Assembly: GCF_009674825.1 (NCBI RefSeq)
Contig: NZ_WKJH01000002.1
Location: 496,001-560,000, forward strand
From: Maribacter luteus
GTDB lineage: Bacteria; Bacteroidota; Bacteroidia; Flavobacteriales; Flavobacteriaceae
Reading direction: 5' to 3'
DNA length: 64,000 bases
In this document: positions 4,348-58,500 of the stretch, in pieces
Layout of the letters: the number at the start of each line of letters is the position of its first letter
Position numbering within the stretch: position 1 is the first letter of the stretch
Translations under genes and position numbers: made by a program
The notes under the pieces: generated by a model
Seen by the model: only the letters and a program-made list of their open reading frames with translations
Told to the model about the DNA's origin: nothing
The model's database searches: none

Positions 4348-4358
4348 ATGTAATGCAA

Positions 4359-4967: not shown

Positions 4968-4997
4968 AATTGTATTTTTTTAGAAATATTATTAGTG

Positions 4998-5005: not shown

Positions 5006-5098
5006 ATTGTTATGTGAAGTGTGGAAGTCCTAGATATTTTGATTTTAAAGAATCAGGACAAAAAACAGGACCAGTAGCCTTTTTTAGCCTTAAAGCAA

Positions 5099-5980
5099 TT
5101 AAGACATCGTGTATAAACTGTTCTTGTATTGCACCGGGGTGAGGCCCGTATGTTTTTTAAAAGCGGAATAAAAGGCCGATTTGGAATTGAACCCTGCTTC
5201 TAGACCTACGGAAACAACGGTGTAGTGGTCAAAAGCATTGGAGCTTAAGTTTCGCTTTACATCGGCGATTCTATATTCATTGATAAAATCGATAAAACTT
5301 TTATTTAAAAGGCTATTTATCATACTTGATAGGTAACAGGCCGAAATACCCAAAACGTCCGCAACCGATGAAAGGCTCAGGCATGGGTTTCGATATAGTT
5401 TTTTAAAACGCATCAACTCTTCCAATTTCTTAAAATACTTATGGGCTGTACTGAACTGTATTTTTGACTTCGTATGTAGTTCTTTGATTCGTTGCGCGCA
5501 TAGGGCCGCTATAATATTCAATAAACACAAGTGTTTCTCCGTAAAAAAGCCTGCCTCGGGATGTTCGGAGTCGATAATACCAAAAAGATTGCTATTGATT
5601 AGAATGGGGACACATATTTCTGAGAGGCGGGGCTCGTCATCCACAATGTACCTAGGGTCTTTGGAAGTGTCGTTAATTATTTCCGCACATTTTGAGATGG
5701 CGACACTACCAACGATACCCTCGCCCAGGTCCAGTCTTATTTGATTATAAATGCGCTCATCGCTTGGGTTTTTAGTGCCATAAGCGGCATGTTGTACCAA
5801 TTCAAATTTGCTAGGGTCATAAGTATATATAACACAGTCGACAAACCCTAAACGGTGAATCACATTTTTGGTAATGCCCCAAAGGATCTCGTCAATGGAT
5901 TCCTTAGTGCTTAATGAGGTTGAAAAAAAACTAATAGCCCTAATTTCCTCTAGGGTACTTAAGGTATTGTAATCTTGCAT
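5099..5980 (-). CDS. GAF-domain AraC-family transcriptional regulator
   Basis: I start at the ATG at 5980 (MQDYNTLSTL, 293 aa); the two codons before it (TTG GTT) lie in a palindrome AACCAATTGGTT (5981-5992) that may be an operator. Residues about 25-160 form a GAF domain (VDCVIYTYDPSKFELVQHAAYG, LGEGIVGSVAIS, EICVPILINSNLFGIIDSE), which would bind a small molecule or sense redox. Residues about 190-290 are an AraC/XylS double helix-turn-helix (SLSSVADVLGISACYLSSMI ... AGFNSKSAFYSAFKKHTGLTPVQYK). It is separated from the collagen-like lipoprotein genes by about 130 bp on the same strand. Targets are not evident. Confidence 0.85.
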   Translation of the reverse strand: MQDYNTLSTLEEIRAISFFSTSLSTKESIDEILWGITKNVIHRLGFVDCVIYTYDPSKFELVQHAAYGTKNPSDERIYNQIRLDLGEGIVGSVAISKCAEIINDTSKDPRYIVDDEPRLSEICVPILINSNLFGIIDSEHPEAGFFTEKHLCLLNIIAALCAQRIKELHTKSKIQFSTAHKYFKKLEELMRFKKLYRNPCLSLSSVADVLGISACYLSSMINSLLNKSFIDFINEYRIADVKRNLSSNAFDHYTVVSVGLEAGFNSKSAFYSAFKKHTGLTPVQYKNSLYTMS

Positions 5981-6228
5981 AACCAATTGGTTTTAAATTA
6001 AAGGTGTAAGGGGCACCTACTGGGTATGGGTTGGATTTGACTCCAATTAACCGGTCAGATAAGGTCGGGGAAATACCTATCTGTCACGGTCGTTGACAAA
6101 ACTATTGGGATTACAAAAAACGGGTGGGTAGAATTGTTGCCGATGTTTGGACTATTCCCTTCGGCGATCTTTTAATTCTTGGAGTATTGTTGCATTTGGC
6201 CTAAAACAAATCAATATAACAGGCTGTT

Positions 6229-9200
6229 TTACTGATTTTTACGTGTTTCACTAGGCGGATACCCGAACGTCTTCGAAAACAAACGTGAAAAGTAGGCGGG
6301 ATCGTCATATCCGACCTCATAAGCTACTTCCGAGACATTCTTTTCGGTGATTTTCAATAGTTGCCGCGCTTTTTGAAGTTTAACCATCTGTATGAATGCG
6401 CTAGTAGACAAATCAGTTAGGGCTTTTAACTTGCGGTGAAGGTTGCTTCGACTAACACCTAAAGCCCTACAAAGTTCAAGAATTCCAAACCTGCTATCAC
6501 CGATATTATCCTCGATGATTGCCCGAGCTTTGATAATGAACGCATCGGTTTCCTGGGTGACCTTGGCATCATTCTGTTTCCAAAAGTCAGGATTTCGATA
6601 TTTTTTACGCAAAGTTTCCCTCTGTTCCAGCAATTTGGCTATGCGGATGGTAAGCTCCTTTTCATCAAAGGGCTTTTCCAAATACGCATCGGCACCAAGC
6701 TTCAATCCTTCCAGTTTCGATTCGGAATCCGATTTTGCGGTAAGCATGATTATGGGAATATGGTCGGTAATTGGATTGGATTTTATTTCATTACATACCT
6801 CAAATCCATCTTTACCAGGCATCATCAAATCAGTTAAAACCAAGTCCGGCACAGTTTCAAAAACGTTTTTCACCCCACTATCGCCATTGTGGTCGAAATT
6901 CAGGTGGTACTCATGTTTTAAAATAGATTCCAGATAAGAACAGATATCCAAATTGTCCTCAATAATCTGAACGATAGGAAGTGTGATGGCCATTTCATTA
7001 CTGTTCGGTCGAAGCTCCCTTCTATCCAGATGAATAGTTTGGTATTCCTTATCAAATAGGATCTGTTCCGTAGCTTTATGTACTATGGGGAGAATCACTT
7101 TAAAGCTAGACCCCTGTCCAACCGTACTTTTAGCGCTGATCGTACCGTTCATCAGATGTACCAATTCCTTTGTGAAGGACAGACCGATACCCGTGCCCCC
7201 CATGTGCCCCTTAACCTGATGGTAGCGTTCAAAAACCAATTTTAAATCTTCTTTTGAAATACCGATACCATTATCCTTAACAACAAATTCGGCCTGCAAA
7301 TCACGATGTGATATCTGTAGGTAAATATCCCCCTTTACAGGTGTATTTTTAATGGCATTCGAAAGAAGATTGGAGAAGATATATTTTATTTTTTGGGCAT
7401 CGAAATCCATATAAAGTGTTTCTACGCTGCTTAGAAAATGCAGGCGTATTTCTTTTGCAGCGGCCAAAGAACCAAATGAACCCAATATATATTTTAGATA
7501 AACAATGATATCGCCATGGGCGAGGGTAAGGTTCAATGCACCAACATCGAGTTTGGAAAGATCCAGTATCTGGTTCACAAGATCATTCAGCTCATCACTA
7601 TTCCTGATTATGGTTTTTGCCGAATGGTCGATCTCTTTATTTCCTTTTTTCCGAAGGGTATTGGCCATACCTGAAATAACGGCCAAGGGTGTTTTAAACT
7701 CATGGGCCACATTGTTGAAAAAAGTCGTCTTAAAAACATCAAGTTCTTGAAGCCTTCTTTTTTCAGCGATATCGAGATTTCTACGGAGTATATATTTATG
7801 TACACCAAAGAATAGGGATAACAGTAACAAGAAATAACAACTATAGGCCAGCTTTGTTTGCCACCAAGGTGGGGTAATGGTTATTTTCAAACAAAGTCTA
7901 TCGGTAATGAAATCGAGATCGGGATTCATGGCAACAACTTCGAGTTCGTAGCCTCCCGGGGGCAGACTATTAAAGGTCACCCAACGTTCACTACCGTTAT
8001 TTTGCCATGCATCGCTAAGGTTTTCGACCCTATATTGGTACTTTGTTTTTTCCGCCAAATGGTAATTAAGGGTTGTATAATTGATAATGAATGAGTTGTG
8101 TTCATAATCCAGAATAATTTCATCTTGTTGTGGATTTATTTTTCGTACCGTTTCTTCACTTGCCTGTGGAACCAATTGGGCATGGGTGAAGAAAAAATCG
8201 ATTTTTGGCTTAACGAAATCCTTAAAAAGTTTGGGGTTGACTACCTCCATTCCGGCATCAGTCCCAAAAAAAAGCAGCCCCTCGGCATTCTTATAGGCAG
8301 AAGACAATAGGAAATTACTGCTATTCAAGCCATCCTCTTGTCCAAAAAAATTAAAGGCGCCCGTGTTATTATCCAATTGAAAGATACCATTGCCCACAGT
8401 ACTGCCCCAGATATTTCCAAAATCATCTTCGGCCAGCGCCATAATTTTTTCATCTTTGAGTCCGTCTTTCTTAAGATATCTCTTGACTTCAAAAGTCAAA
8501 GGATCTACGGCATTCAAGCCTGCATCGGTACCGACCCAAATAGTTCCATCGGAAGCTTCCAATAGCGATGTGGCCAAGCGATGCGAAAGACTTTTTTTAT
8601 CTCCCGATATGTAATTGATATTACGGAATTGGGGCTCCCCCCCCGATTTTAGTTCTTCCGGATTTTCCAAAACGTACACCCCAGAGGACAAGGTACACAG
8701 CCAAAGCCGGCCTTGGGTATCGATCAATAGATCAATTCGCGGTACATCGTGCAATGCTGGCATCTTCGTGATGTCAAAGGTTTGGAACACCCCTGACTCT
8801 TTTCGATAACAAATCAGGTTTCCTGCAGTGACCATCCATAAATCACCGATGGCGTCCTCCGCTATGGACCAACCTCCCTTAAAATAGGAAGACGATAATA
8901 CTTTCACCTTGAAAGAAGTGGTGTCTATCTCATAAAAACCATTCCCGATGGCATAAATATGACCCGAATCGGATAAGTGCATGCCATAGATTTTTTTAGT
9001 AAGGATGCTTTGCACCTGTTTTTCTTCATTGACGCGAAATAGACCTTCATTGGCGGCTATCAATAAGGTGCCGTTCACTTGGTTAAATTCCCTGATATCA
9101 TGCAAATCAGTGCCAATAGGGGGTATATTTTTTGATTGGAACCGATTTGAAAAAGTGGAGATCAGCGCCAACCCCTTGTTAGTCCCAATCCACATATTTT

Positions 9201-10125
9201 TATGTATATCCTCAAAAAAACTAAGGGCCTGAACGCCTTCTAAATCTTTTTCAAACAAGTTAACGTAGGAGTGGAATTCAATAGCATTTCTATTTTTATC
9301 CACAATGGAAATACCCTTTTCACCACCGATCCAAATTCTGTTTTCCGAATCCTCAATGATCGGGTTATCGGCAAAACGCAATGAAACCAAGGCATTAAGT
9401 TCAAGTTTTCTGGAAATCGTGTAGGTACCATTAGAATTACCGTAGATTGAGAGTATCTCATTTTCCAGACCGAAAATCCGATTCCCTGAATCGATAAAAA
9501 TATTATTTATCCGTTCTTTGGAATTATCGATAACCTTTTTAAAACTGCCCCTTTGGGCATTAAAAGCAAATATGCCCGAGGAAGAAAGAAAGAAAATATC
9601 CCCATCGGTATTTTTTAAAAGGTCGATGACCTTTCCGCCAAATACCCTTTCAAAACCATTCGTGTCGCTTGTTTTTTTGAAAAGTCCACCATCAGTCGCT
9701 ACATACAAACTCCCATTTTGGTCGGTAAGCAGTTTATTGATCGATGTAATCGTATCGTTTTGATAAACAATTGCCAGATGTTCGAATTCATTTTTTGCTA
9801 TATCGTATGAATCAAGACCCCCATAGTCAACCCCTAACCATAGTTCATTTTTAGATTTTTTGGCAATCCGTTTCACCCAATTGGCAACGGGACTATTGCT
9901 ATCTTCAGGGTTGTGGGTTATACTTTCAAAGGTATAGCCGTCAAAACGGTTAAGACCATATTGGGTTGCCAACCAGATGTAGCCTTTATCATCCTGTGAA
10001 ATATCAGAAATCCAATTATTGGAAAGTCCATCACGGGTATCCCAAACCCTTGGCTTATTCTGGGCTCCTATACCACAGAGGGAAAGCATAAAGAGTACTA
10101 TACAAATCTTAGTATTAAAACGCAT
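6229..10125 (-). CDS. Hybrid two-component system sensor/regulator (HTCS) with AraC output
   Basis: A 1298-aa one-protein signalling system. Order: signal peptide (1-22), Reg_prop beta-propeller repeats (about 25-630; WDTRDGLSNNWISDISQDDKGYIWLATQYGLNRF), Y_Y_Y domain (about 680-765; YRVENLSDAWQNNGSERWVTF), one membrane helix (about 775-797), HisKA with phospho-acceptor His808 (VAHEFKTPL), HATPase (about 915-1030; NAIKNT, DNGIGI, GGTGIGLS), receiver with phospho-Asp1099 (LVLTDLMMPGKDG), and AraC helix-turn-helix (about 1195-1295). In Bacteroidota such proteins sense oligosaccharides in the periplasm and switch on polysaccharide utilisation genes. No SusC/SusD pair is next to it, so its regulon is remote or consists of other genes here. 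Confidence 0.95.
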   Translation of the reverse strand: MRFNTKICIVLFMLSLCGIGAQNKPRVWDTRDGLSNNWISDISQDDKGYIWLATQYGLNRFDGYTFESITHNPEDSNSPVANWVKRIAKKSKNELWLGVDYGGLDSYDIAKNEFEHLAIVYQNDTITSINKLLTDQNGSLYVATDGGLFKKTSDTNGFERVFGGKVIDLLKNTDGDIFFLSSSGIFAFNAQRGSFKKVIDNSKERINNIFIDSGNRIFGLENEILSIYGNSNGTYTISRKLELNALVSLRFADNPIIEDSENRIWIGGEKGISIVDKNRNAIEFHSYVNLFEKDLEGVQALSFFEDIHKNMWIGTNKGLALISTFSNRFQSKNIPPIGTDLHDIREFNQVNGTLLIAANEGLFRVNEEKQVQSILTKKIYGMHLSDSGHIYAIGNGFYEIDTTSFKVKVLSSSYFKGGWSIAEDAIGDLWMVTAGNLICYRKESGVFQTFDITKMPALHDVPRIDLLIDTQGRLWLCTLSSGVYVLENPEELKSGGEPQFRNINYISGDKKSLSHRLATSLLEASDGTIWVGTDAGLNAVDPLTFEVKRYLKKDGLKDEKIMALAEDDFGNIWGSTVGNGIFQLDNNTGAFNFFGQEDGLNSSNFLLSSAYKNAEGLLFFGTDAGMEVVNPKLFKDFVKPKIDFFFTHAQLVPQASEETVRKINPQQDEIILDYEHNSFIINYTTLNYHLAEKTKYQYRVENLSDAWQNNGSERWVTFNSLPPGGYELEVVAMNPDLDFITDRLCLKITITPPWWQTKLAYSCYFLLLLSLFFGVHKYILRRNLDIAEKRRLQELDVFKTTFFNNVAHEFKTPLAVISGMANTLRKKGNKEIDHSAKTIIRNSDELNDLVNQILDLSKLDVGALNLTLAHGDIIVYLKYILGSFGSLAAAKEIRLHFLSSVETLYMDFDAQKIKYIFSNLLSNAIKNTPVKGDIYLQISHRDLQAEFVVKDNGIGISKEDLKLVFERYHQVKGHMGGTGIGLSFTKELVHLMNGTISAKSTVGQGSSFKVILPIVHKATEQILFDKEYQTIHLDRRELRPNSNEMAITLPIVQIIEDNLDICSYLESILKHEYHLNFDHNGDSGVKNVFETVPDLVLTDLMMPGKDGFEVCNEIKSNPITDHIPIIMLTAKSDSESKLEGLKLGADAYLEKPFDEKELTIRIAKLLEQRETLRKKYRNPDFWKQNDAKVTQETDAFIIKARAIIEDNIGDSRFGILELCRALGVSRSNLHRKLKALTDLSTSAFIQMVKLQKARQLLKITEKNVSEVAYEVGYDDPAYFSRLFSKTFGYPPSETRKNQ

Positions 10126-46063: not shown

Positions 46064-47395
46064 TTAATCCACCTGATCCTTGAATGTCAATTTAAATGTG
46101 GTTGATTGCCCATTGGAATGGAAGTTGATCGTCCCATAATGTGCGTTCATGATATTCCTGCTCAGGCTAAGGCCAATACCAGAGCCATTATTTCGGGTCG
46201 TGAAAAAAGGAACGAAAACCTCCTTTTTGATCGAATCCTTTATACCATGGCCATTATCGCTTACTTCGATGACCGTTGACGTATTTGCCCGATAGGCTTT
46301 CAACGAAATTTTGGGATGTTCGCTGTTTTGCAGTGCATAAACACTATTCGTCATTAAATTGATTAACACCTGCTCCAACTGGTTTTTATCTGCATACAGA
46401 CGTAAAGATTTTGTCACTAAATCAATCTCGACTTGGATTCCCTTTTCTTTCAATAATCCGGAGAGGAACGTCTTGCTATGCCTAAAAAGTTCCTCTATAA
46501 CGAACCAAGTGGGCTTGGGTGTTGGCAGTTCTGCCAAGAGTCGGTAATTCTCAATGAAATCCAGAAGATGTAAAGTTCTTTTTTTTATGGTCAATAGACT
46601 CTGCTCTATATCCTTTTGGTGCTCCCCCACTCCTTGACTTTCTTCCCCAATCAAAAATTCAAGGTTATTGGTCAAGGATGTTATTGGGGCTATGGTATTG
46701 ATGATCTCATGACTCATTACCTTCATCAGATTAAACCAAGCTTCCTTTTCCGTGCGATCCATGATATTTTGAATGGGATCAAGATTTACGACGAGATAAC
46801 GGTTGCCATAAATTTCGGAAGTATAGGTTCGCAAACTAAAAACTTCCTCTTTATCATTTATTTTCAATGTGATAACATCCCTTAAATTCCGCCAACTTTC
46901 TTCATTCAAAAATTTTTCAAAGGCATTTAAATATTTCTTGGCCATTGACCAATTGGTATACTGTGGTAATTCAAGTATTTCGAAAAATGCTTTGTTCGAA
47001 AAAAATATCCGTTCCGAATCTTGCTTCAAAATCAATATCCCTGTATCCATCGACCCGATAATCGATTCGTATACCAACTTCATTGATTCTGACTGGGCCC
47101 TTGTCTCCTGCGATTGCACCAAGAGTTCCTGTAATGGTTTCGCGATGTTCTTGGTGAGCTTGCTTTTAGGGATCTTTACTGAGAGATCCTGCTGTACCAT
47201 TGCCTGTAAAGTCTGTGACGTTCGAAGTAAGGTTTCCTTGGTTTTATCGAAAAACGAATAGGCTGCCGAAATGGCCAATACAAAGACCAATAAGGCCACG
47301 AATGGATATCCTTTCATGACCAAGATCGTTCCACAAACGGTAAGTGCAAGGGATAACCCAACCAATAAAATAAATGAAATACCTAGTTTTCGCAT
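46064..47395 (-). CDS. Membrane sensor histidine kinase of the sigma-54 pair
   Basis: A 443-aa kinase with two membrane helices near the N-terminus (about 6-27 and 31-50) separated by only a few residues, so sensing is probably through the membrane or the cytoplasm. A PAS-like domain is at about 105-215 (SIIGSMDTGILILKQDSERIFFSNKAFFEILEL), the phospho-acceptor is His229 (KVMSHEIINTIAPIT), and the ATPase has NLMTNSVYAL, DNGHGI and GSGIGLSLSR. It is an NtrB-like architecture. The gene lies 6 bp after the sigma-54 activator and so is co-transcribed with it; the two form a cognate pair. Confidence 0.9.
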   Translation of the reverse strand: MRKLGISFILLVGLSLALTVCGTILVMKGYPFVALLVFVLAISAAYSFFDKTKETLLRTSQTLQAMVQQDLSVKIPKSKLTKNIAKPLQELLVQSQETRAQSESMKLVYESIIGSMDTGILILKQDSERIFFSNKAFFEILELPQYTNWSMAKKYLNAFEKFLNEESWRNLRDVITLKINDKEEVFSLRTYTSEIYGNRYLVVNLDPIQNIMDRTEKEAWFNLMKVMSHEIINTIAPITSLTNNLEFLIGEESQGVGEHQKDIEQSLLTIKKRTLHLLDFIENYRLLAELPTPKPTWFVIEELFRHSKTFLSGLLKEKGIQVEIDLVTKSLRLYADKNQLEQVLINLMTNSVYALQNSEHPKISLKAYRANTSTVIEVSDNGHGIKDSIKKEVFVPFFTTRNNGSGIGLSLSRNIMNAHYGTINFHSNGQSTTFKLTFKDQVD

Positions 47396-47401
47396 GGTAG
47401 G

Positions 47402-48766
47402 TTACAGCTTAAATTTATCCATGCGGCGATAAAGTGCTGCACGTGTTATACCTAAATCCCTTGCGGCATTGGTGACATTGCCCTGGTGCTTTTCAAGTGC
47501 CATTTCCACCAACATTCTTTCGGTCTCCTCCAAATTAAGGCTTGCAATTAAATTTTCCTTTTTTCTTTGGGGGCCAAAATGCAGATCGGATTCCGATATC
47601 TCATTTTCATCACAAAGAATCACCGCCCGCTCAACCATATGCTCGAGTTCCCTAACGTTTCCCGGCCATCTGTAATTCTTTAATGCCTCAATGGCCTCGG
47701 GTGAAAATTGTAACTTCCCCTTTTGATATTTTTTCTTATTCCTTTCCAAGAAAAAAGTGGCCAATAACGGAATATCATCCACACGATCCCTAAGGGGCGG
47801 CACAAGTATCTCCATGGTATTGATGCGATACAAAAGGTCCTGACGGAATTCTTTCTGTTCTACCATAGCATGTAGATCCATATTGGTCGCACAGATTATC
47901 CTGACATCGATCGCTCGTTCCCGAGACTCCCCTAAACGTACCACTTTCCTGTTTTGAAGTACTGCCAATAGTTTGGTCTGCAAGTGTATGGGCAAGTTAC
48001 CGATTTCATCTAAAAAAAGGGTTCCTTCATCAGCCAATTCAAATCGTCCTATACTATCCTCTTTGGCATCGGTAAAAGCGCCTTTTGCATAACCGAACAA
48101 TTCACTCTCGAAAAGATTACCGTTCAATGACCCAAGATCAACATGTGCGAAAATCTTATCCCTTCTCGAGGATAGGTTGTGCAACATCTTGGCAACAACG
48201 TATTTCCCTGTTCCATTTTCCCCCAACAGTAGTACATTGGCATTGGTGTCAGCAACTTTTTCAGCCATATTTACCACTTCCTTAAATGTCTTTGATGTTC
48301 CGATTACCCTATGGCCATCAATATCTAACGAGGTGGTTATCTTTTTGAACTTTTCCCCTTGTTTCTTGGATTTTCTCTGGGCAATACCCCCATCAATGGT
48401 CACCAAAAGTTTATCATTGTCCCATGGTTTCAACAAAAAATCATATGCCCCTAGTTTAATCCCTTCAACAGCCAGACCAACACTGGAATAGGCCGTCATA
48501 AGAACAACTACCGTTTCCGGGGAAACTTCATTGATACGTTTTAACCAATAAAGCCCTTCGTTTCCCGATTGTTCCCCCCTTCTAAAATTCATGTCCATCA
48601 ACACCAAGTCTACCACCGATTGACTTAAGGTCGACATAATCTTCTTGGGATCTGACAGGGTAATAACCTCACTGTAGAAACGACCTAAGAATAGCTTTAG
48701 GGAATAAAGGATGTCCGGGTCATCATCGACCAATAACAATGTATGTTTCTTTTTTCCCATATTCAA
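47402..48766 (-). CDS. Sigma-54-dependent response regulator (NtrC family)
   Basis: A 454-aa activator. Receiver domain 1-125 with phospho-Asp58 (VDLVLMDMNFRRG), AAA+ domain about 150-390 (Walker A LLGENGTGKYVV at about 180-191; Walker B GTLFLDE at about 248-254), and a Fis-type helix-turn-helix at the C-terminus (ALEKHQGNVTNAARDLGITRAALYRRM). The sigma-54 contact loop reads GAFTDA (229-234) instead of the canonical GAFTGA. It is divergent from the HlyD-ABC-permease genes, and the intergenic palindrome and -24/-12 promoter are its probable targets. Histidine kinase gene follows 6 bp downstream. Confidence 0.93.
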   Translation of the reverse strand: MNMGKKKHTLLLVDDDPDILYSLKLFLGRFYSEVITLSDPKKIMSTLSQSVVDLVLMDMNFRRGEQSGNEGLYWLKRINEVSPETVVVLMTAYSSVGLAVEGIKLGAYDFLLKPWDNDKLLVTIDGGIAQRKSKKQGEKFKKITTSLDIDGHRVIGTSKTFKEVVNMAEKVADTNANVLLLGENGTGKYVVAKMLHNLSSRRDKIFAHVDLGSLNGNLFESELFGYAKGAFTDAKEDSIGRFELADEGTLFLDEIGNLPIHLQTKLLAVLQNRKVVRLGESRERAIDVRIICATNMDLHAMVEQKEFRQDLLYRINTMEILVPPLRDRVDDIPLLATFFLERNKKKYQKGKLQFSPEAIEALKNYRWPGNVRELEHMVERAVILCDENEISESDLHFGPQRKKENLIASLNLEETERMLVEMALEKHQGNVTNAARDLGITRAALYRRMDKFKL

Positions 48767-48790
48767 TTTTAATGATATGTTCGATATCGT

Positions 48791-48824
48791 ACAAATAAGT
48801 GTCCGAAAACGGACACTTATTTGT
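48791..48824. promoter_or_regulatory. Perfect palindrome, probable upstream activator site for the sigma-54 regulator
   Basis: ACAAATAAGTGTCCG (48791-48805), AAAA, CGGACACTTATTTGT (48810-48824): 15-bp arms match perfectly. Its centre is about 98 bp upstream of the predicted sigma-54 start site near 48906 and about 42 bp from the regulator's own ATG. This is a typical enhancer position for an NtrC-type activator. Confidence 0.75.
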
Positions 48825-48879
48825 CTGTTAAAAAATTTTATATACTGATTTACAACTACTTAACAGCTTCTTCTTCCTT

Positions 48880-48894
48880 TGGCATGATATACGC
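48880..48894 (+). promoter_or_regulatory. Sigma-54 promoter (-24/-12) of the efflux operon
   Basis: TGGCATGATATACGC contains GG (48881-48882), ten bases, then GC (48893-48894), the invariant spacing of sigma-54 promoters; TGGCATG matches the -24 block and the -12 block is ACGC instead of TTGC. The predicted start site is about 48906, 16 nt before the ATG at 48922. Confidence 0.65.
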
Positions 48895-48921
48895 TAAAGA
48901 TAAGTTGAAAAAATTACCTTA

Positions 48922-50166
48922 ATGGACAGAAAGATCGAACATAAAAAAAATCCTCTCAAACGCATACTCCTGTATACCCTACTTGCCATTTTATTATGCC
49001 TGTTATTATGGTCGGCATTAGCGGCCGGCAACAAAGTAACGATTGACAGGGATAGGGTAAGTATAAAAACCGTGGAATATGATTCTTTTGAGGATATGGC
49101 CCTCTTCAACGGAAAGGTACAACCCCTGAACACCCTTCAAATAAACACTATTGAGAGTGGCACGGTCAAAAAGATACACGGGCAAAATGGTGCACTTATC
49201 AAAGAAGGGGAACTTTTACTGGAACTTTACAACCCCAATACCGAACTTAGTTATCTCACCCAGGAAACAGCGATAATCGAACAGATCAATAATCTCAGAA
49301 ACACCCGGATATCGATTAAGAACCAACAAATGACCCTGGACAAGGACCTTATTCAAATGTCGTACAATTTCAACAATGCTGCACGACAATACCGTATGGA
49401 CACCACATTGTACCGAAAAGGGGTAATATCAAAAAATGATTATCTAAAATCAAAGGAGACTTTCGAATTCCAAGGAAAACAACAAGAGAATACCAAAAAA
49501 TACATGCAAAATGAACAAAAGGATAGGGAAACCCAGTTACGATTGATCAATGCCTCTATAGAAAAAATGGAAAAAAGCCTGGAACAATTGCGAGAGAACA
49601 AAGAAAATTTCATTGTTAAAGCCCCCGCAACCGGACTATTATCTTCATTCAACCCTTTACTGGGAAAGAGCTATAACAAAGGGGAACTTATTGGAAAAGT
49701 AGACATGCAGGATGGATATAAACTTTTGGTTCGGGCCGATGAGTATTACTTCAATCAATTGAAAACAGGAAAAATGGCCCTCTTGGAATTTAACGATAAA
49801 CAATATCATCTAAAGGTTGAAAAAGTAGTAGCCGAGGTCATCAATGGCAAATTTGATATTGAACTCGTTTTCGAGGATAGAGCACCCGAAACCATACAAC
49901 AGGGAATGACACTGCCCATTAAGATCTATTTATCCAATAAAAAAGAAAAGGCACTTTTGCTTCCCAAGGGCTCATTTTACCAATCATCGGGCGGACAATA
50001 TGTCTTTGTGTTAACCAATGACAATACTGCGAAGAAGCGGAAAATAAGCATTGGAAAGGCCAATGCCAACTTTTACCAAGTACTGGAGGGCCTTGTTGAA
50101 GGCGACAGGGTAATTACCTCATCCTATGACGACTTTAAGGACAAAGATGTACTGGCATTAAACTAA
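48922..50166 (+). CDS. HlyD/MFP-family periplasmic adaptor
   Basis: A 414-aa membrane-fusion protein with one N-terminal helix (about residues 15-36, ILLYTLLAILLCLLLWSALAAG). Then a lipoyl-like barrel half (LQINTIESGTVKKIHGQNGALIKEGELLLELYNP), a long coiled coil (about 100-215, with RNTRISIKNQQ and KEKNFEFQGKQQENTKKYM-type repeats), the second lipoyl half (ENFIVKAPATGLLSSFNPLLGKSYNKGELIG) and a membrane-proximal domain (LPKGSFYQSSGGQYVFVLTN). It would link the ABC permease to an outer-membrane channel, which is not encoded here. It is the first gene of the sigma-54-controlled operon and is followed by the ATPase gene after 52 bp. Confidence 0.93.
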   Translation: MDRKIEHKKNPLKRILLYTLLAILLCLLLWSALAAGNKVTIDRDRVSIKTVEYDSFEDMALFNGKVQPLNTLQINTIESGTVKKIHGQNGALIKEGELLLELYNPNTELSYLTQETAIIEQINNLRNTRISIKNQQMTLDKDLIQMSYNFNNAARQYRMDTTLYRKGVISKNDYLKSKETFEFQGKQQENTKKYMQNEQKDRETQLRLINASIEKMEKSLEQLRENKENFIVKAPATGLLSSFNPLLGKSYNKGELIGKVDMQDGYKLLVRADEYYFNQLKTGKMALLEFNDKQYHLKVEKVVAEVINGKFDIELVFEDRAPETIQQGMTLPIKIYLSNKKEKALLLPKGSFYQSSGGQYVFVLTNDNTAKKRKISIGKANANFYQVLEGLVEGDRVITSSYDDFKDKDVLALN

Positions 50167-50218
50167 GAAACCAAAAAACAGTATAAAACATTCATCAATC
50201 AGTTAGAACCATTCAATT

Positions 50219-50914
50219 ATGATACACCTTAAAAATTTAAGTAAAACCTACAGCACGGAGGAAGTAGAGACCACAGCCGTAAATGATATTTCCCTCGAAG
50301 TCAAAGAGGGTGAATTTCTGGCCATTATGGGTCCCTCGGGATGTGGAAAATCCACTTTATTGAACATTATAGGTCTCTTGGATTCCTTTGACACGGGTAG
50401 CTATTCTTTTTTAGAAAAGGAAATGTTCGGATTAAAGGAAAGGGACCGTGCCATGTTCAGAAAGCAGAACATTGGTTTTGTGTTCCAGAATTTCAATTTG
50501 ATCGACGAACTAAGTGTTTATGAAAATATTGAACTGCCCCTTGTTTACAATAAAATTGGCAAGGCAGACCGTAAAATCAGGGTTGAAGAAGCTATGGAAC
50601 GTCTTAATATTTCACACCGAAGCAAACATTACCCACAACAGCTATCAGGGGGCCAACAACAACGCGTCGCGGTAGCCCGAGCATTGGTGAACAGACCCAG
50701 ACTCATTTTGGCAGACGAACCCACGGGTAACCTTGACAGTAAGAACGGCAATGAGGTTTTGGAATTAATGACTGAGCTGAACACGCAAGGTGCTACCATC
50801 ATTATGGTGACACACTCAAGTTACGACGCTGGCTTTTCAAGTAAAATCATAACACTGCGTGATGGCATAATCGTTGGCGAAAAAGTAAATCAACGTCAAA
50901 TAGAAATCATCTAA
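50219..50914 (+). CDS. ABC transporter ATPase (MacB/LolD type)
   Basis: A 231-aa ATPase. Walker A is MGPSGCGKSTLL (about residues 38-49), the Q-loop is FVFQNFNLIDELSVYENIELPLVY, the signature is [15 protein letters not shown], Walker B is PRLILADEPTGNLD, and the switch His lies in MVTHS. The sequence pattern is that of the MacB/LolD exporter class, in which the ATPase drives mechanotransmission rather than direct transport. It sits between adaptor (52 bp) and permease (22 bp) on one transcript. Confidence 0.95.
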   Translation: MIHLKNLSKTYSTEEVETTAVNDISLEVKEGEFLAIMGPSGCGKSTLLNIIGLLDSFDTGSYSFLEKEMFGLKERDRAMFRKQNIGFVFQNFNLIDELSVYENIELPLVYNKIGKADRKIRVEEAMERLNISHRSKHYPQQLSGGQQQRVAVARALVNRPRLILADEPTGNLDSKNGNEVLELMTELNTQGATIIMVTHSSYDAGFSSKIITLRDGIIVGEKVNQRQIEII

Positions 50915-50936
50915 ATCAATCAAAAAACGAACATTC

Positions 50937-53366
50937 ATGATTAATTCCTGGCTTAAGATCTTCCTTTGGAACCTAAAAAAAAGACCGCTCTACCCGCTCA
51001 TCAATACCCTTGGACTTACCTTGGGAATCACCTGTTTTATCATGGTCATTCTTTTTGTGAGCAAAGAATTGAGTTATGAAAAATGGAATCCCAACCTAGA
51101 GCATATCTACAGGCCCATTCGCCTATTCGACAATGGGGAAGTATGGACCACCTCACCAGGCATCATGGTAAAAACGGCCAAAGAACAACTCCCTGAATTG
51201 GAAGATGCCATGATGATGAATTGGATGGGAAGCATTCTCTTTAATTCCGATGGAAAAAAACTGATGAAAGGAGCCATGGGTACCACTCCCAATTTCTTTG
51301 ATTTTTATCCTTATCCTTTTAAATATGGGACAAAAGAGAACCTTTTCAAAAATGAGAATGAACTTGTCTTAAGCGATACATTCGCCTTTGAACTTTTTGG
51401 GGACACCAATCCCGTTGGCAAAACAATAGAAGCCCTCTTCAGAAACGAACCTATAACGTACCTCATAACCGGGGTGTATACGACCAAAGGTTATCCCAGT
51501 GAAACCCAGCCTGCAATCTTAAAGTTGATAAAGAAAACCGACAATATGGACCATTGGGGCAACTTCAACTATACGGCCCTATTCAAGTTACATCCCGGCA
51601 TCGATATCAGTACCTTCATTTCCAAATTCGATAAATTCTATGATGAAAACACCTATAAATCTTGGGGGATTTCTTGGGAAGAATACCTAAAAGGGAAGGA
51701 AGAACGAATGTCGATAGAAAATTTAGGGGATATCCACTTATTCTCAAAGGCCCATAAGGGCAAAGGGGCAAATACCATTTTCATTCTTTCCTTATTGGCA
51801 TTCCTTATCTTGGTAATATCTTCGATCAACTTTATAAACCTGAGCATATCCGGTTCAACACAAAGGGCCAAGGAAGTTGCGGTTCGAAAAACCTTAGGCA
51901 CCAGTAAAACAAAAATCGTATTGCAGTTTATCTTTGAAGTTACCCTGCAATGCCTGTTCGCCATCATAATCTCTTTGGCGCTGGTAGAAATTCTTCTACC
52001 CATGTTCAACAGCCTAATGAACACCGAATTGGAAATCCTTGACCCGTACAACAAGTGGTTCTGGGCGTTAGGCATTATTGGGTTACTCGTCTTTATCGCC
52101 GGCATTTTCCCTGGGATGCACCTTTCAAACTTCAATCCGGTAAAAGTGTTGAAAGGCAATTTTGGGCGTTCAAAAAGCGGAAACACCCTCAAAAAGACCA
52201 TGATCATCTTCCAATTTTGTATTTCCGCGATCTTTCTGATTTCCGCATTCATCATAAAATCACAATTGGATTACATGAACAATAAGGATCTGGGGTTCCA
52301 AAAAGACCAAATGCTATTCGTACGCATTCAGAATGGGGGGGAAACCTGGAAAAAGATGGAAACATTCAAACAGGAACTCACCAAACTGAACGGAATTGAA
52401 AGGGTGGCCACTACCACAAGGCCCCCAGGTACCTATGCAGGAAATGGCTCAAACTCAAATGTTGATTACCGTGAAATAAGCTATCAGACCGATATGCATT
52501 TTATCGATGCCGACTATTTTCCCACCATGGACATAAAACTTTCTGAAGGAAAAAACTTCATTCAAGATTGGATGCAGACAGATCGATCAAAATTCATAAT
52601 GGATTCAGATGGGGATACCTTACTCTTGAATGAAATCATTGTGAACAAAAAATTGGTGGACAAATTCGGATTTGAAAACCCTATTGGCACAGAGGTTTCC
52701 TATTGGGGCTATAAGGGCACCATAATTGGCGTAGTCGATAACTATATCTCCAAAGGGTTTGACGAAGGCGCCTACCCTGCCTTATATATGAACTATCTTA
52801 AAGGTGATAATGGGGATTGGGGCAAACCGTCCTTTGTAATGATAAAATTGAACAACCAGGACGTGAAAATCACCTTGAACGAAATCGAAAAATTCTGGAC
52901 TACTCGTATCGAACCCCGTTTTCCGTTTAAATATGAGTTTCTTGACCAGAATTTTGCCGAACTATTCTCCAAGCACGAACGATTGGAAAAACTGGTGACC
53001 GGACTCTCCATACTGATGATTTTTATCTCATTGCTTGGGTTGTTCGCAATTGCCTCGCACACCGTTCAACTGCGTTATAAGGAAGTGGCCATTAAAAAAA
53101 CCTTGGGAGCCTCGGAAAAAGAGTTGGTGTTCGGACTCATCAAGGACTTTATTCTAATCACCATAATCGCATTATTCATTGCCCTCCCCATCTCATTTTA
53201 CCTATCGAATAGATGGCTGCAAGATTTTGCCTATCGCATCGATATTCCACTGGCACCCTTTCTTATTACCCCTATTATCATGCTGACTTTGACCATAGCC
53301 ATCATTCTGGCCCAAGCGGCAAAAGCCCTAAAGTTGGATCTGGTTTCCCATCTCAAATATGAATAA
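50937..53366 (+). CDS. ABC transporter permease (MacB/FtsX type, two modules)
   Basis: An 809-aa membrane protein. Helix 1 is at about residues 20-42 (LINTLGLTLGITCFIMVILFV). A MacB_PCD periplasmic domain follows (about 45-270), then three FtsX helices (about 280-400, LLAFLILVISSINFINLS ... ISLALVEILLPMF), helix about 425-445 (IIFQFCISAIFLISAFII), a second periplasmic domain (about 450-680) and the last three helices (about 690-800, LSILMIFISLLGLFAIA). This duplicated form is the common large permease of Bacteroidota. With the adaptor and ATPase it forms a tripartite exporter; substrate unknown, possibly antimicrobial compounds, lipids or peptides. Confidence 0.93.
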   Translation: MINSWLKIFLWNLKKRPLYPLINTLGLTLGITCFIMVILFVSKELSYEKWNPNLEHIYRPIRLFDNGEVWTTSPGIMVKTAKEQLPELEDAMMMNWMGSILFNSDGKKLMKGAMGTTPNFFDFYPYPFKYGTKENLFKNENELVLSDTFAFELFGDTNPVGKTIEALFRNEPITYLITGVYTTKGYPSETQPAILKLIKKTDNMDHWGNFNYTALFKLHPGIDISTFISKFDKFYDENTYKSWGISWEEYLKGKEERMSIENLGDIHLFSKAHKGKGANTIFILSLLAFLILVISSINFINLSISGSTQRAKEVAVRKTLGTSKTKIVLQFIFEVTLQCLFAIIISLALVEILLPMFNSLMNTELEILDPYNKWFWALGIIGLLVFIAGIFPGMHLSNFNPVKVLKGNFGRSKSGNTLKKTMIIFQFCISAIFLISAFIIKSQLDYMNNKDLGFQKDQMLFVRIQNGGETWKKMETFKQELTKLNGIERVATTTRPPGTYAGNGSNSNVDYREISYQTDMHFIDADYFPTMDIKLSEGKNFIQDWMQTDRSKFIMDSDGDTLLLNEIIVNKKLVDKFGFENPIGTEVSYWGYKGTIIGVVDNYISKGFDEGAYPALYMNYLKGDNGDWGKPSFVMIKLNNQDVKITLNEIEKFWTTRIEPRFPFKYEFLDQNFAELFSKHERLEKLVTGLSILMIFISLLGLFAIASHTVQLRYKEVAIKKTLGASEKELVFGLIKDFILITIIALFIALPISFYLSNRWLQDFAYRIDIPLAPFLITPIIMLTLTIAIILAQAAKALKLDLVSHLKYE

Positions 53367-53498: not shown

Positions 53499-54944
53499 TT
53501 ACACCCCTTCCATCTGAAGTTCAACAACATCAAACTCTTTTTTTGGGGCTTCACATACAGAACAATGGTAGTCTTCGGGTAAATCAACAAAGGCCGTGTC
53601 CTTGGGTATTCCAGCTTTTTCATCTCCATAGAATTCGTCATAAACTGTAAAACATGAGGTGCACTGGTATACGGATCGGATTATTTTCTCTTCTTTCTTT
53701 TCCTGTGGTTCTTTTTGAACATTGGCCTTTCCTAGTTGTTCAAAATACTTTTTACTCAGTTCCATGAGTAGTCCGGGTAGTTCAATTTTATCAACATCTT
53801 GGGCATAAGCATGATATTTTTGACTGTTAGGATCAAAATTTTCGAAGTGAAGTACATTATAAGTCGGCCTGATCTCAAAATCCTTTACTAGGGTCGGAGC
53901 ACTATTCTTTTCAATGATAATCGACGCAAAATGTGAACGTTTCCCTACATCGTTACTTATACCGAAAGTAAGTCCGTAAGTACTAATATCATTTTGGTCG
54001 AAGCTACGTACCAGGAATTTCTTGAGCTCCAAGGCTTCAGAATCATCTACCGGCACATGCCAGTTCATCTCTAATTGTGAATGCCTTATATTTATTCCCC
54101 ATTGGCCCAAAAAACGTTCCAATTCAGGTCGACTACCCTGTTTGATTCCTTTTACAATGAACGATTTCCATGGGGTAATACAAATTTTCCCTATGCTATT
54201 GTCCAAGCAAAATCCGCAAAACTCTTTTAGGAAAGAAAGATCGTATTTATTATTCCGCCAGTATAATCCCAACCAATACTGATCAATTCCCATCCGGTTC
54301 ATACCCTCATAATAAGGGAAGGTAAGATAGGGTACGATCAATGGTTTGTCCACTGTTTTATTGTTTGTGTCTATTTTCTTGCTCAACACATAGAATAGTT
54401 CGTCTACATCAGAAATATCCTCATAAATAGTTTCAATGGTTTTGGAAATGGTGACCATATCCCAACTATAGACCAAAACGGGATAATAGGCCGAGCTCTG
54501 CCAATGCGGTAGTTTTACATTCAAATACCAATAATCCTCACTTTCGGAAGCAATGAAATTAAGGTTGCCGCTAAAAAGTGGTACCAAACGTTGTTTTGGG
54601 TCGGTAATATTGATCTTTAATTGGGGCAGGTAATCAAATCCCTCTAAAATATATAAGTATGTAGAGCCTTTTAACCAATAGGTCATGTCGAATACATCGG
54701 CGGAAACATAGGAACTCACGATATTCTGATACCCCCTATCAACAACAATATCCGTATTGAATTTCGATAGATTCTCTAGTTTTTCCCCCTCCTTATATTC
54801 TTTTAAAGGGAACAACAGGTCTTGCCGTGACCCAAAATGTACTTCTTTTAAACCAGCGGTTTCAAGCATTGATATAATGTCTTTCAACTCTCCTGGGGAT
54901 GTAACCCCTCCTTTTAAAAGTACGCGATGCAGATCGTCTTTCAT
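53499..54944 (-). CDS. Rubredoxin-tailed, sulfite/nitrite reductase-like protein of the nitrate locus
   Basis: A 481-aa protein. The C-terminus (about 428-478) is a rubredoxin domain with both Cys pairs (YQCTSCFTVYDE and YHCSVCEAPKKEF), binding one Fe. The rest resembles the ferredoxin-like half-domains of sulfite/nitrite reductases (LLKGGVTSPGELKDIISMLETAGLKEVHFGSRQDLLFPL near the start; ICITPWKSFIVKGI near residue 265), but the siroheme/[4Fe-4S] Cys motif TGCxxxC is absent; only FCGFC...IC clusters in the middle. It may be an electron carrier or an unusual partner for nitrite handling. It starts 28 bp after the reductase stop and is co-transcribed with it. Confidence 0.75.
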   Translation of the reverse strand: MKDDLHRVLLKGGVTSPGELKDIISMLETAGLKEVHFGSRQDLLFPLKEYKEGEKLENLSKFNTDIVVDRGYQNIVSSYVSADVFDMTYWLKGSTYLYILEGFDYLPQLKINITDPKQRLVPLFSGNLNFIASESEDYWYLNVKLPHWQSSAYYPVLVYSWDMVTISKTIETIYEDISDVDELFYVLSKKIDTNNKTVDKPLIVPYLTFPYYEGMNRMGIDQYWLGLYWRNNKYDLSFLKEFCGFCLDNSIGKICITPWKSFIVKGIKQGSRPELERFLGQWGINIRHSQLEMNWHVPVDDSEALELKKFLVRSFDQNDISTYGLTFGISNDVGKRSHFASIIIEKNSAPTLVKDFEIRPTYNVLHFENFDPNSQKYHAYAQDVDKIELPGLLMELSKKYFEQLGKANVQKEPQEKKEEKIIRSVYQCTSCFTVYDEFYGDEKAGIPKDTAFVDLPEDYHCSVCEAPKKEFDVVELQMEGV

Positions 54945-54972: not shown

Positions 54973-57900
54973 TTACTTTAGACTCAATTCCTTATCCAAT
55001 AGAGCTTTTATTTCGGGTTTACAACTTCCACAGCCCAACCCTGCTCCGGTTTGCGAACATATTTCCTTAAAATCGGAACACCCGCCCAAAATGGCATCGA
55101 CAATGTTACCTTCACCCACTTGGCTGCAAGAGCAGACCAATTTCCCTTTTAAAGAAACGGTATTCGTCGCCCCTCTAAGAAGTTCGTTCCTCTTTTCCGA
55201 AAGTTCAATTTCCTCTTCAATCAATCTTTTAAATTCGGGAAACTCGTTTTTATCCCCCATTAAGATAGCACCCTTCAAAGTATCGTCTTTTACGATACAT
55301 TTTTTATAGAAGCGCTTACTAACATCCATTAAGATTATTTCCTCGTAACCGGGATCTTCTTTTGGGGCATTCACCATACCTATGCTGCACAGATCAAGGT
55401 TTTCGAACTTTAGGATGTTCATCAGCACGGAGCCTTTATAAATACTACTGAAATCGCCTAAAATATAATTCGCGGCAATATCTGCCTGTTGTTCTACCGC
55501 AGATGTGATTCCGAAAAGTGAATTCTCGAACTCCGCGATTTCACCAAGTCCGAAAATGTTGGGATCACTGGTTTGTAAATAGGAATTTACCACAACCCCC
55601 CTTCTTGTGTTTAATTTGGCGACCTTAGCCAACTCAATATTCGGTCGTGTTCCTATGGCATATACAATGGCATTACATTGTAAGGTTCTACCTGTTTTAA
55701 GATTTACAAGTAGATTGAACGCATTCCCTTTTTCCTCAAAAACAGTACTGACTTCATTGTCGAAATATAGATTGATGTTCCTTTCCGAAACATCTTCGGC
55801 CAAAAGTCTACTGGCCACACTATCCAGTTGCCGCTCCATTAATCTCGGTGCACGCTGAACAATACTGATATTTATATTTATTTTCTTAAGGGCCGCAGCT
55901 AATTCCAGACCCAACAAGCCACCACCTACGATTACAACGTGCTGTTTTTCTGCCGGAAGCCCTGTATTCTGCAAATATTGCCTCAACCTATCGGCATCAG
56001 TACGTTCGCGCATGGTAAATCGTCCGGGCCTATCCATTTGTACATCATTGGGCACAAAAGCACGACTACCCGTAGCCATGACCAGAATATCATAATTATG
56101 CTTTTCATTATTAGAGTCGGTAACCGTTTTATCCGTAGCGTCTATGTCGATAATTCCAACTCCTGAATGCAAGGTGACCCCCAATTTTGCAACTTCCCCT
56201 TTTTTTAGTTTTTCCAAAGCTTCCCATGAAAGTTCCTCGCTAACATATTCGGGTAATAATACCCGATTGTAGAACGGGTCTTTCTCTTTTGAGAACACAC
56301 GCACCTCATCATGCGAATCTTTCTCCCGATACGATTGAATAAAGCGATAGGCCGCAGCACCGGCACCTACAACGACTATCTTTTGTTTTGGTTTTACAAA
56401 ACTTGAAACTTGAACGGCACAGTACTTAAAATCCGGTTCTTTTGAGATGGGATCCACAATATCGTTCGTTATGTTATTTGCCCTACCGAAATCATTGTTC
56501 AATACTTTTCCCCAATGCATGGGTAAGAAAACCACATTTTCCCTGATATCATAATTGACCTTCACTTTTACCTGTACTTGTCCCCTTCTACTCTTTATTA
56601 CGGCAATATCCCCCTCCTTTAAATTACGCAAATAGGCATCTACTTTATTCATTTCCAAATACGGTTCCGGAATATGTGTAAGGAGACGTTTGACTTTTCC
56701 TGTTTTCGTACGTGTATGCCATTGATCCCTAACCCTACCTGTAGTCAATACCAACGGATAGTCCGCATCGGTTTCTTCGGAAGTATTATAAAGCTTTTTC
56801 GGAGCATTGAAATGTGCTTTTTTATCATTTGTATGAAATTGAAAGTCTGTAAACAGTCTTGGCGTACCCTTGTGCGTCGCATGGGGTACGGGCCATTGAA
56901 AACTCCCGTCGTTCTTTAATCTATCATACGATAAACCGGAGATATCGATATTCGTGCCCTTTGTAAGTAGACAATGCTCATCGAACACCTCACCGGCATT
57001 ATTGTAATCGAAACCTTCAAAACCCATGGCTTTCGCAAAACGCCATAGAATTTCTACATCTGCCATTGCTTCACCCGGAGCGTCTATTACTTTAGGCAAG
57101 TGACTTATCCTTCTTTCCGAATTGGTCATGGTCCCTTCTTTTTCCAACCAGCCGGCAGCTGGCAAGAGCAAGTCCGCATATTTGGTTGTCTCCGCGTTAT
57201 GTGAAATATCCTGAACAACCACAAAACTGGCCTTTTTCAATGCCTTTTCTATTTTATGGGCATTGGGCATACTCACTACAGGATTGGTACAAATGATCCA
57301 AATTGCTTTTAGTTTACCTTTTTCAAGGGCATCGAACATTTCAGTGGCCGTATAGCCCGGTTCTTGTTTAATATCCTTACCTCCCCAAAATTCGGCAACT
57401 TCCTTTCTATGACTGGGATTACCCAGATCTTTATGTGCCGCCAAAAGACTGGCCATACCCCCAACTTCCCTTCCTCCCATGGCATTGGGCTGCCCGGTCA
57501 ATGAAAAAGGGCCAGAACCTGGTTTTCCGATCTGCCCGGTCAATAAGGACAGGTTCATTAAGGCTACATTTTTATCAACCCCTATAACGCTTTGATTTAA
57601 ACCCATGGTCCACATACTGATAAACTTACCTGCGTTTCCAATATAATCAGCAGCTTTCCGGATATCGGATATGGCAACACCACATTTTTCAGCTGCTTGG
57701 CGTATGGAAAGGGTAAAGGCACTTTGCTTACATGCCTCGAAATTGACGGTATGCTTTTTTATGAAATTTTTATCGATTTTTCGTTTTTCAATCAACCATC
57801 GGGCAATGGCATTGAACAAAATAACGTCGGTTCCTGGAAGAATTTGCAAATGCAGATCCGCAGCGGCGGCTGTCTGGGTCTTCCGCGGGTCGACCACGAT

Positions 57901-58500
57901 TACCTTTACCTGCGGGTTATCCGCTTTTCGTTGTTCCAATCTACGATATAAGATAGGGTGGCACCATGCGGGATTTGCCCCAGCGATCAAAAAGCAATCG
58001 GCAAGCTCAATGTCTTCATAGGAAATGGGTACGGAATCTTCCCCAACGGTTTTTTTATAACCTACCACTGCCGAGCTCATACACAGGCGGGAGTTGGTGT
58101 CGATATTATTCGTTCCTATAAAACCTTTGGTGATTTTATTAGCCAGATAATACTCCTCGGTCAAACATTGACCCGAAACGTAAAAACCAACACTATCGGG
58201 ACCATGCTTTTGGATAATACTTTTAAAAACTGCCGCTGCACGCTCAAAAGCCGTATCCCAAGAAATTCTCTGCATGGGATGGTTCCTGCTCCATCGCATT
58301 TCAGGATAAAGTATGCGATCAGTAGTATCTTGTGCTACATAATTTAGATTTCTCCCCTTTGAACACAACATACCCTTATTAGCTGGGTAATCGGGATTTC
58401 CCGTTACCGATATGGTACCCTTGGCATCAACATCAACCAAAATACCACAGCCTACTCCACAATAGGAACAAATGGTCTTTTCTGTCTTCTTTTTTCGCAT
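54973..58500 (-). CDS. Fused assimilatory nitrate reductase: Mo-bisMGD + FAD/NAD(P)H reductase + BFD
   Basis: A 1175-aa cytoplasmic enzyme of three parts. Residues 1 to about 690 are the molybdopterin reductase, with a [4Fe-4S] site from Cys11/14/18/46 (CSYCGVGC...LCSKG) and the Mo-ligand Cys140 (NSRLCMSSAV), ending in the molybdopterin dinucleotide-binding domain (FLPMHWGKVLNNDFGRAN). Residues about 700-1040 are a pyridine nucleotide-disulfide oxidoreductase (IVVVGAGAAAYRF, VVIVGGGLLGLELAAAL, GLGEIAEF). Residues about 1120-1165 are a BFD [2Fe-2S] domain (VCSCSQVGEGNI, GAGLGCGSC). The fusion allows NAD(P)H-to-nitrate electron flow in one chain. It lies below a NarL-type palindrome and is followed by the rubredoxin-like gene. 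Confidence 0.92.
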   Translation of the reverse strand: MRKKKTEKTICSYCGVGCGILVDVDAKGTISVTGNPDYPANKGMLCSKGRNLNYVAQDTTDRILYPEMRWSRNHPMQRISWDTAFERAAAVFKSIIQKHGPDSVGFYVSGQCLTEEYYLANKITKGFIGTNNIDTNSRLCMSSAVVGYKKTVGEDSVPISYEDIELADCFLIAGANPAWCHPILYRRLEQRKADNPQVKVIVVDPRKTQTAAAADLHLQILPGTDVILFNAIARWLIEKRKIDKNFIKKHTVNFEACKQSAFTLSIRQAAEKCGVAISDIRKAADYIGNAGKFISMWTMGLNQSVIGVDKNVALMNLSLLTGQIGKPGSGPFSLTGQPNAMGGREVGGMASLLAAHKDLGNPSHRKEVAEFWGGKDIKQEPGYTATEMFDALEKGKLKAIWIICTNPVVSMPNAHKIEKALKKASFVVVQDISHNAETTKYADLLLPAAGWLEKEGTMTNSERRISHLPKVIDAPGEAMADVEILWRFAKAMGFEGFDYNNAGEVFDEHCLLTKGTNIDISGLSYDRLKNDGSFQWPVPHATHKGTPRLFTDFQFHTNDKKAHFNAPKKLYNTSEETDADYPLVLTTGRVRDQWHTRTKTGKVKRLLTHIPEPYLEMNKVDAYLRNLKEGDIAVIKSRRGQVQVKVKVNYDIRENVVFLPMHWGKVLNNDFGRANNITNDIVDPISKEPDFKYCAVQVSSFVKPKQKIVVVGAGAAAYRFIQSYREKDSHDEVRVFSKEKDPFYNRVLLPEYVSEELSWEALEKLKKGEVAKLGVTLHSGVGIIDIDATDKTVTDSNNEKHNYDILVMATGSRAFVPNDVQMDRPGRFTMRERTDADRLRQYLQNTGLPAEKQHVVIVGGGLLGLELAAALKKININISIVQRAPRLMERQLDSVASRLLAEDVSERNINLYFDNEVSTVFEEKGNAFNLLVNLKTGRTLQCNAIVYAIGTRPNIELAKVAKLNTRRGVVVNSYLQTSDPNIFGLGEIAEFENSLFGITSAVEQQADIAANYILGDFSSIYKGSVLMNILKFENLDLCSIGMVNAPKEDPGYEEIILMDVSKRFYKKCIVKDDTLKGAILMGDKNEFPEFKRLIEEEIELSEKRNELLRGATNTVSLKGKLVCSCSQVGEGNIVDAILGGCSDFKEICSQTGAGLGCGSCKPEIKALLDKELSLK

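Follow-up and report, generated by a model that had tools for sequence, protein, structure and literature searches.

A candidate sigma-54 switch with paired operators between a kinase–activator pair and an exporter operon in Maribacter luteus

How might an exporter operon be controlled when the regulatory genes beside it are read in the opposite direction? The question is raised by a locus in a 64,000-nucleotide stretch of Maribacter luteus DNA (contig NZ_WKJH01000002.1 of assembly GCF_009674825.1, positions 496,001 to 560,000; hereafter the window, with position 1 as its first letter). As judged from the open reading frames (ORFs) of the window and their Pfam domains, the genes for a sensor kinase (K) and an NtrC-type activator (R) are transcribed divergently from an operon encoding a HlyD-type adaptor (H), an ATP-binding cassette (ABC) ATPase (A) and a duplicated FtsX permease (P). 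These gene calls and domains agree with a preliminary description of this DNA, which had claimed a kinase/activator/tripartite exporter module. K (46064–47395) and R (47402–48766) lie on the reverse strand, the true start of R being likely the ATG at 48760 and not the called ORF edge at 48766, and H (48922–50166), A (50219–50914) and P (50937–53366) lie on the forward strand. We consider it likely that the locus is a self-contained, locally wired sigma-54 exporter switch with paired operators. Comparison with related loci strongly supports sigma-54 control of H-A-P by the divergent activator, and supports the gene order, promoter, operator pair, spacing rule and local specificity described below.

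Promoter and paired operators

A search of 198 genomes with K, in which the top eight candidates per genome were scored, gave 59 best matches in 50 genomes (E no higher than 6.3e-29), whose alignments span roughly residues 100–425 or more; the next rows cover the C-terminal half only. R is divergent from an exporter gene at 53 of the 59 loci, window included, while four of the remaining six are cut by contig ends, one is not divergent and one has another neighbour. A further 80 named loci, taken as the best 80 of 565 confirmed relatives, come mostly from Bacteroidota, with a few records from Latescibacterota, Zixibacteriota, KSB1, Aminicenantes and other phyla; here 44 loci have a divergent exporter, 25 are not divergent, six lie at an edge, three have another neighbour and two are without R. 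The combined 139 loci yielded 97 exporter operons, 42 having been dropped (26 not divergent, 10 edge, four other neighbour, two without R), and removal of three duplicate loci left 94 regions. Maribacter aquimaris is the closest named relative among the matches listed, with a kinase that is 95% identical (locus L120).

The exporter is not a constant companion. In the Algoriphagus/Lunatimonas group some K-R pairs are not exporter-linked, and the pair at locus L157 adjoins FtsH, metallophosphoesterase and cytochrome genes. At L157, the one scanned (1944–9851), the cytochromes are multihaem, and a similar gene order is found at L136, L162, L166 and L176. Two exporter operons (L067:11656-13863 and L070:11918-15075) carry aspartyl-protease, leucine-rich repeat (LRR), DUF2807 and DUF4932 genes between adaptor and ATPase.

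The claimed GG-N10-GC promoter is present at 48880–48895 on the forward strand as the -24/-12 element TGGCATGATATACGCT, which is of the TGGCAC-N5-7-TTGCT type and would place the transcription start at about 48905. Within 150 nt upstream, TGGCA(C/T) is found at 63 of the 97 exporter operons as compared with 10 of 198 control upstream regions from these loci examined in equal windows; a 180-nt window raises the count to 69/97, with 2/97 on the reverse strand. When 55 sites in the 94 regions were picked by TGGCA(C/T) alone, the unselected -12 columns still displayed T in 80% and G in 84%.

Read from left to right, the space between the genes contains the likely R start (48760), a distal dyad, a proximal dyad, an IHF-like site, the -24/-12 element and the H start (48922). 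The putative proximal dyad TGTCCGAAAACGGACA (48800–48815) is the core of an inverted repeat at 48791–48824 which had been reported as a perfect 34-bp palindrome; the repeat is real, its perfection over 34 bp is not, since 15-nt arms (48791–48805 and 48810–48824) flank AAAA. A putative distal dyad TGTTCGATATCGTACA (48778–48793), centred 22 bp from the proximal one, had been overlooked. The exact pattern TGTNCGN4CGNACA occurs at three sites in the 4.65-Mb genome, two of which are the window dyads. If one mismatch is allowed there are 68 sites and 54 in a reversed control, and loose matches thus carry little meaning.

In the relatives the half-sites TGT and ACA are enriched at two spacings, TGT-N10-ACA being found in 35/94 promoters and 13/198 controls and TGT-N11-ACA in 41/94 and 7/198, respectively; the other spacings from 4 to 21 displayed little excess, the largest being N6 (10 vs 5) and N13 (16 vs 8). 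Tandem dyads 21–23 bp apart are present in 55 of the 94 exporter promoter regions, on which the dyad rule was both derived and counted. None was found in the 198 first controls, which are shorter (150 nt, against a mean of 288 nt for the promoter regions), and equal-length controls left the result standing (24/1,880 dinucleotide shuffles and 8/1,880 random real pieces from the same loci). Moreover, when the distance from proximal dyad to -24 was measured with no position limit other than -24 being downstream (n = 54), it fell at 62–65 bp in 13 cases and at 72–76 bp in 39, that is, in 52/54 within two classes separated by roughly one helical turn. Outliers at 13 and 96 bp (2/54) are retained in the counts, and one further locus is without a -24 call. 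Autoregulation would be suggested by a constant distance between distal dyad and R start, but no such constancy was found (25–26 nt in 12/55, the rest from -32 to 795).

Between the dyads and -24 a predicted IHF-like site lies at 48838–48850 on the reverse strand, with one mismatch to WATCARNNNNTTR, which we take to be the IHF consensus. The exact form occupies this interval in 23/52 promoters, as compared with 1.5% of mononucleotide shuffles and 0/198 controls, and a form within one mismatch does so in 46/52 (25.5% of shuffles, 38/198 controls).

The specificity of the operators was assessed at the level of whole genomes, which is independent of the derivation of the rule, with recovered loci that were largely already known. 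In 198 genomes the combined N10 pattern gave 16 matches in 16 genomes, all at K-R loci, and none in the reversed control; in the window genome it is unique. Because this pattern occurs only at K-R loci and once per genome, an N10-class R is most likely the regulator of one operon. The N11 pattern gave 39 matches in 23 genomes (two in the control), of which 17 are at K-R loci. Among the other 22, 12 precede further P genes, two precede TolC-H-A operons near contig ends, two are the same dyads read in mirror image and six are without such a target.

The recognition helix of R tracks the operator class. It reads RQTLYN at all 16 loci of a sister class whose operons open with a TolC-family gene, all of them with TGT-N11-ACA operators, and differs from RQTLYN at 27/27 TGT-N10-ACA loci, where it is mainly RAALYRR (20); RAALYRR is also found at 3/28 N11 loci. 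Comparison of the relatives' intergenic regions sustains the earlier claim of sigma-54 control via the divergent activator.

The activator and the kinase

R consists of a receiver with the phospho-acceptor Asp58, an AAA+ domain with the loop GAFTDA and a Fis-type helix-turn-helix (HTH), and it scores above the cut-offs for Response_reg, Sigma54_activat (PF00158) and HTH_8, which places it in the NtrC family. The Asp58 column is D in 94/94 R proteins. The loop is GAFTDA in 70 of these, GSFTDA in 17, GAFTGA in three, GSFTGA in two and GAFTNA in one, with none found in the last; GAFTDA or GSFTDA are thus present in 87/94 and GAFTGA or GSFTGA in 5/94. In the accessible portion of PMC12316311, GAFTGA is termed invariant and required by the activator filter, whereas the exact motif is found in 3/94 R proteins here, and filtering of this kind would lose 91 of the 94 activators examined. 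GAFTDA is among the loop variants listed as function-keeping in the available part of PMC4641369. Moreover, conserved -24/-12 promoters accompany the GAFTDA activators, which argues that the loop works in these proteins. R also matches the PrsR model of the PEP-CTERM system over its full length (TIGR02915, 406 bits), but lies under the cut-off of 503, and the kinase and targets of PrsK/PrsR are different. The genome contains a single copy of rpoN.

K comprises a transmembrane (TM) hairpin, a PAS-like region assigned by homology, the His229 box SHEIINTIAPI and a HATPase_c domain. Two predicted TM helices are joined by a very short loop, as expected of the kinase without a large periplasmic domain that had been described. 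Exactly two TM windows are found in 51/59 homologues (median loop four residues), and His229 is invariant across the 59 aligned kinases. Intramembrane-sensing (BceS-type) kinases are defined by two TM helices, a loop of less than about 25 residues and no other sensor domain. K has the hairpin, and the suggestion that it senses within the membrane is compatible with this topology; the PAS model, however, is matched by 29/59 homologues, and sensing may for this reason reside elsewhere than in the hairpin. In the BceRS-BceAB modules of Bacillota a short-hairpin kinase likewise stands beside an FtsX-type ABC transporter. The window differs from these in its NtrC-type sigma-54 regulator, which is not OmpR-type, in the two periplasmic domains per permease and in the adaptor.

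The following mechanism would accommodate these data. K, anchored by its two-helix hairpin, may respond to a disturbance at or in the inner membrane and, by family resemblance, would phosphorylate R at Asp58. R would then bind the two tandem dyads on one face of the DNA, an IHF-like bend would carry it to the sigma-54 RNA polymerase at -24/-12, and its AAA+ domain would open the H-A-P promoter. H-A-P would act as a MacB/DarBCD-like exporter from the periplasm to the outside, with a TolC partner borrowed from elsewhere in the genome, where 30 OEP domain matches are found; its substrates are most likely peptide-like or amphipathic compounds. The exporter may expel an antimicrobial, and the kinase may sense it.

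Exporter identity and rival readings

P matches FtsX and MacB_PCD in two stretches apiece, has eight predicted TM helices and is ADOP/DarB-like; A carries an ABC_tran domain of DarD/MacB/LolD type; and H is DarC-like and exceeds the cut-off of the RND_mfp subfamily model (118 bits vs 95). MacB has a fused N-terminal ATPase, four TM helices and a TolC partner. The window exporter shares with MacAB-TolC the MacB_PCD and FtsX domains and the HlyD-type adaptor, and the best sequence match of P in the PDB is MacB (5lil), but it differs in its separate ATPase, in a duplicated one-chain permease and in an operon without TolC. ADOP permeases are described as ATPase-less orphans of Acidobacteria. Residues 13–809 of P align with the full ADOP model (TIGR03434) at 202 bits, and a sister-class P scores 275 bits; the window P is below the 622-bit cut-off and has an ATPase and adaptor adjacent. 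The nearest curated exporter is DarBCD, a tripartite pump that exports darobactin and whose presence also raised tolerance, according to the accessible text of PMC11559228. H matches DarC and A matches DarD along almost the entire length of each model, and P matches part of DarB, with scores of 90, 174 and 289 bits against cut-offs of 700, 450 and 375 for DarB, DarC and DarD, respectively. No darA or darE was recognised among the few neighbours scanned, and the window exporter, unlike DarBCD, adjoins a two-component sigma-54 switch.

The preliminary description had called sigma-54 rarely linked to antimicrobial export, which needs softening. In 2025 an enrichment of sigma-54 for COG0577 permeases in Bacteroidia was reported and called first evidence (PMC12316311, in the part available). 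This concerns the same permease class; it is a COG-level statistic, and that part of the paper contains neither an operator architecture nor a kinase-activator module. In open-licence PubMed Central, no paper was recognised on this kinase-activator-exporter module or its operators, in searches that left permease arrays aside.

Two other functions were considered for the exporter. It could be a signalling or envelope-repair device, in which the permease helps to sense damage and moves lipids or lipoproteins, and not a drug pump. A short-hairpin kinase does adjoin the transporter, A is also near LolD (211 bits), regulons of sigma-54 often concern the outside of the cell, and sigma-54 was proposed in 2011 as a controller of the bacterial exterior (PMC3162934, from its accessible part). 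However, the models matched by permease and adaptor are DarB/DarC, MacB/MacA and RND_mfp, with lolCE at only 22 bits, and the sister-class operon starts with a TolC-family gene (both of the two first genes scanned are OEP), which leaves this function unlikely. We also regard as improbable that the exporter secretes a self-made peptide, either a signal peptide or one resembling a ribosomally synthesized and post-translationally modified peptide (RiPP), in place of foreign compounds. The closeness of the darobactin exporter subunits would suit such a role, as would the aspartyl protease and other extra genes inside some operons, but the window operon is H-A-P alone and, as a weak counter-argument, no precursor or maturase was recognised in scans that covered the gene on either side and one more neighbour.

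Several observations weigh against a sigma-54 switch that drives a TolC-dependent exporter. The R loop is GAFTDA and not GAFTGA, and a pull-down with a GAFTDA protein did not find sigma-54, the accessible part of that report (PMC10714721) being undecided on whether GAFTDA abolishes sigma-54 contact. The -12 element is often degenerate, with the C of the classical GC in only 40% of the 55 sites; GG-N10-GC is for this reason a poor test, found in 34/97 operons and 29/198 controls, and was rejected as evidence on its own. Three sigma-70-like sites lie in 48700–49000, where 1.5 are expected. By the rule used, 39/94 promoters are without a dyad pair; seven of these carry the full pattern and were missed because gene starts or gap lengths placed their sites outside the scanned stretch, and 32 are unexplained. 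On an R tree built without the HTH, operator class changes at least four times, distance class twice and the TolC-first order once, so the sequence counts overstate the number of independent events. No TolC/OEP gene is present among the window operon genes, and P, H and A fall below the NCBIfam equivalog cut-offs for DarB, DarC and DarD.

Finally, a generic inverted-repeat test against dinucleotide shuffles revealed no excess (15/87 vs 14/90 controls at p<=0.05), and the operator signal resides in half-sites and fixed spacing, not in generic repeat strength. This null result would suit a shared terminator or repressor operator with a -24/-12 match by chance, but no terminator is predicted in 48700–49000, for which reason the terminator reading was rejected, and the constant spacing of the pair, its phasing and its specificity from genome to genome make the whole alternative very improbable.

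Two further reverse-strand genes lie beyond P. The first (53499–54944) encodes a 481-residue protein whose C-terminal domain is a rubredoxin and which also contains a nitrite/sulfite reductase half domain. The second (54973–58500) encodes a 1175-residue protein in which a nitrate-reductase-like molybdopterin oxidoreductase is fused to a pyridine nucleotide reductase, a rubredoxin-reductase C-terminal domain and a BFD iron-sulphur domain.

Permease arrays of the sister class

Twelve of the 16 genomes that have a TolC-first locus were searched with one sister-class P, and each yielded between 2 and 47 matches (G029 47, G003 17, G118 15, G112 13, G087 12, G096 10, G085 9, G060 8, G114 8, G009 4, G012 2 and G022 2), a few of which are pieces of one gene. 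The window genome has two, and none was found at E<=1e-15 in 13 genomes chosen for lacking a long kinase match. In G029 (C2:754170-821657), 27 permease genes are arranged head to tail behind a TolC-family, adaptor and ATPase gene set beside a K-R pair, with two small ORFs between some permeases and another ATPase gene at the opposite end of the array; 19 further permeases lie outside the array. Arrays of 15 permeases in G118 (C1:731645-770734), also with a second ATPase at the far end, and of 13 in G112 (C1:671818-704503) likewise stand behind one TolC-adaptor-ATPase set by K-R.

Some of the permeases outside the G029 array appear to have the promoter as well. An N11 pair is found upstream of 9/19 (shuffles 8/950) and 10/19 are without one; in seven of the nine, TGGCA or CGGCA lies at 72.5–73.5 bp. 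These promoters, located by protein homology, are independent of the rule derivation, and 4/9 were already among the N11 pattern matches. The tandem score was reached by 14 of 25 permease upstream regions, two of them (L301, L303) with unconvincing N10 dyads. Mean pairwise identity among 24 G029 array permeases is 24% in both periplasmic domains, but 48% in one and 59% in the other of the presumed coupling regions. Conserved coupling and divergent periplasmic regions would be expected of permeases that make joint use of a single ATPase, as the array permeases may do.

The second duplicated permease of the window genome (G000:C18:43792-46125, also L306:7793-10129) adjoins a VapE-like gene and scores higher against the sister-class query (420 bits) than the window P does (258 bits). 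No TGGCA/CGGCA was found in roughly 510 nt upstream of it, nor any convincing tandem dyads.

Tentatively, then, and as a possibility to be taken seriously, the window may be the one-permease form of a sigma-54-run modular exporter family, the sister class of which plugs up to 46 divergent permeases per genome into a common base. The array and the separate permeases, some of which would have their own copy of the paired-operator promoter, would be served by a single K-R pair, TolC and adaptor together with one or two ATPases. What would surprise a specialist is the operator rule at family level, together with the permease batteries; the window itself contains a compact member.

Overall, the comparisons suggest a testable operator grammar (dyads about 22 bp apart, two -24 distances about one helical turn apart and an IHF-like site between) for a Bacteroidota exporter family on which literature searches yielded no experimental work. 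The grammar permits prediction of targets from sequence alone, and suggests a regulator and a partner ATPase for duplicated permeases without an ATPase of their own. If the modular arrangement is correct, a single signal would deploy a whole repertoire of substrate specificities.

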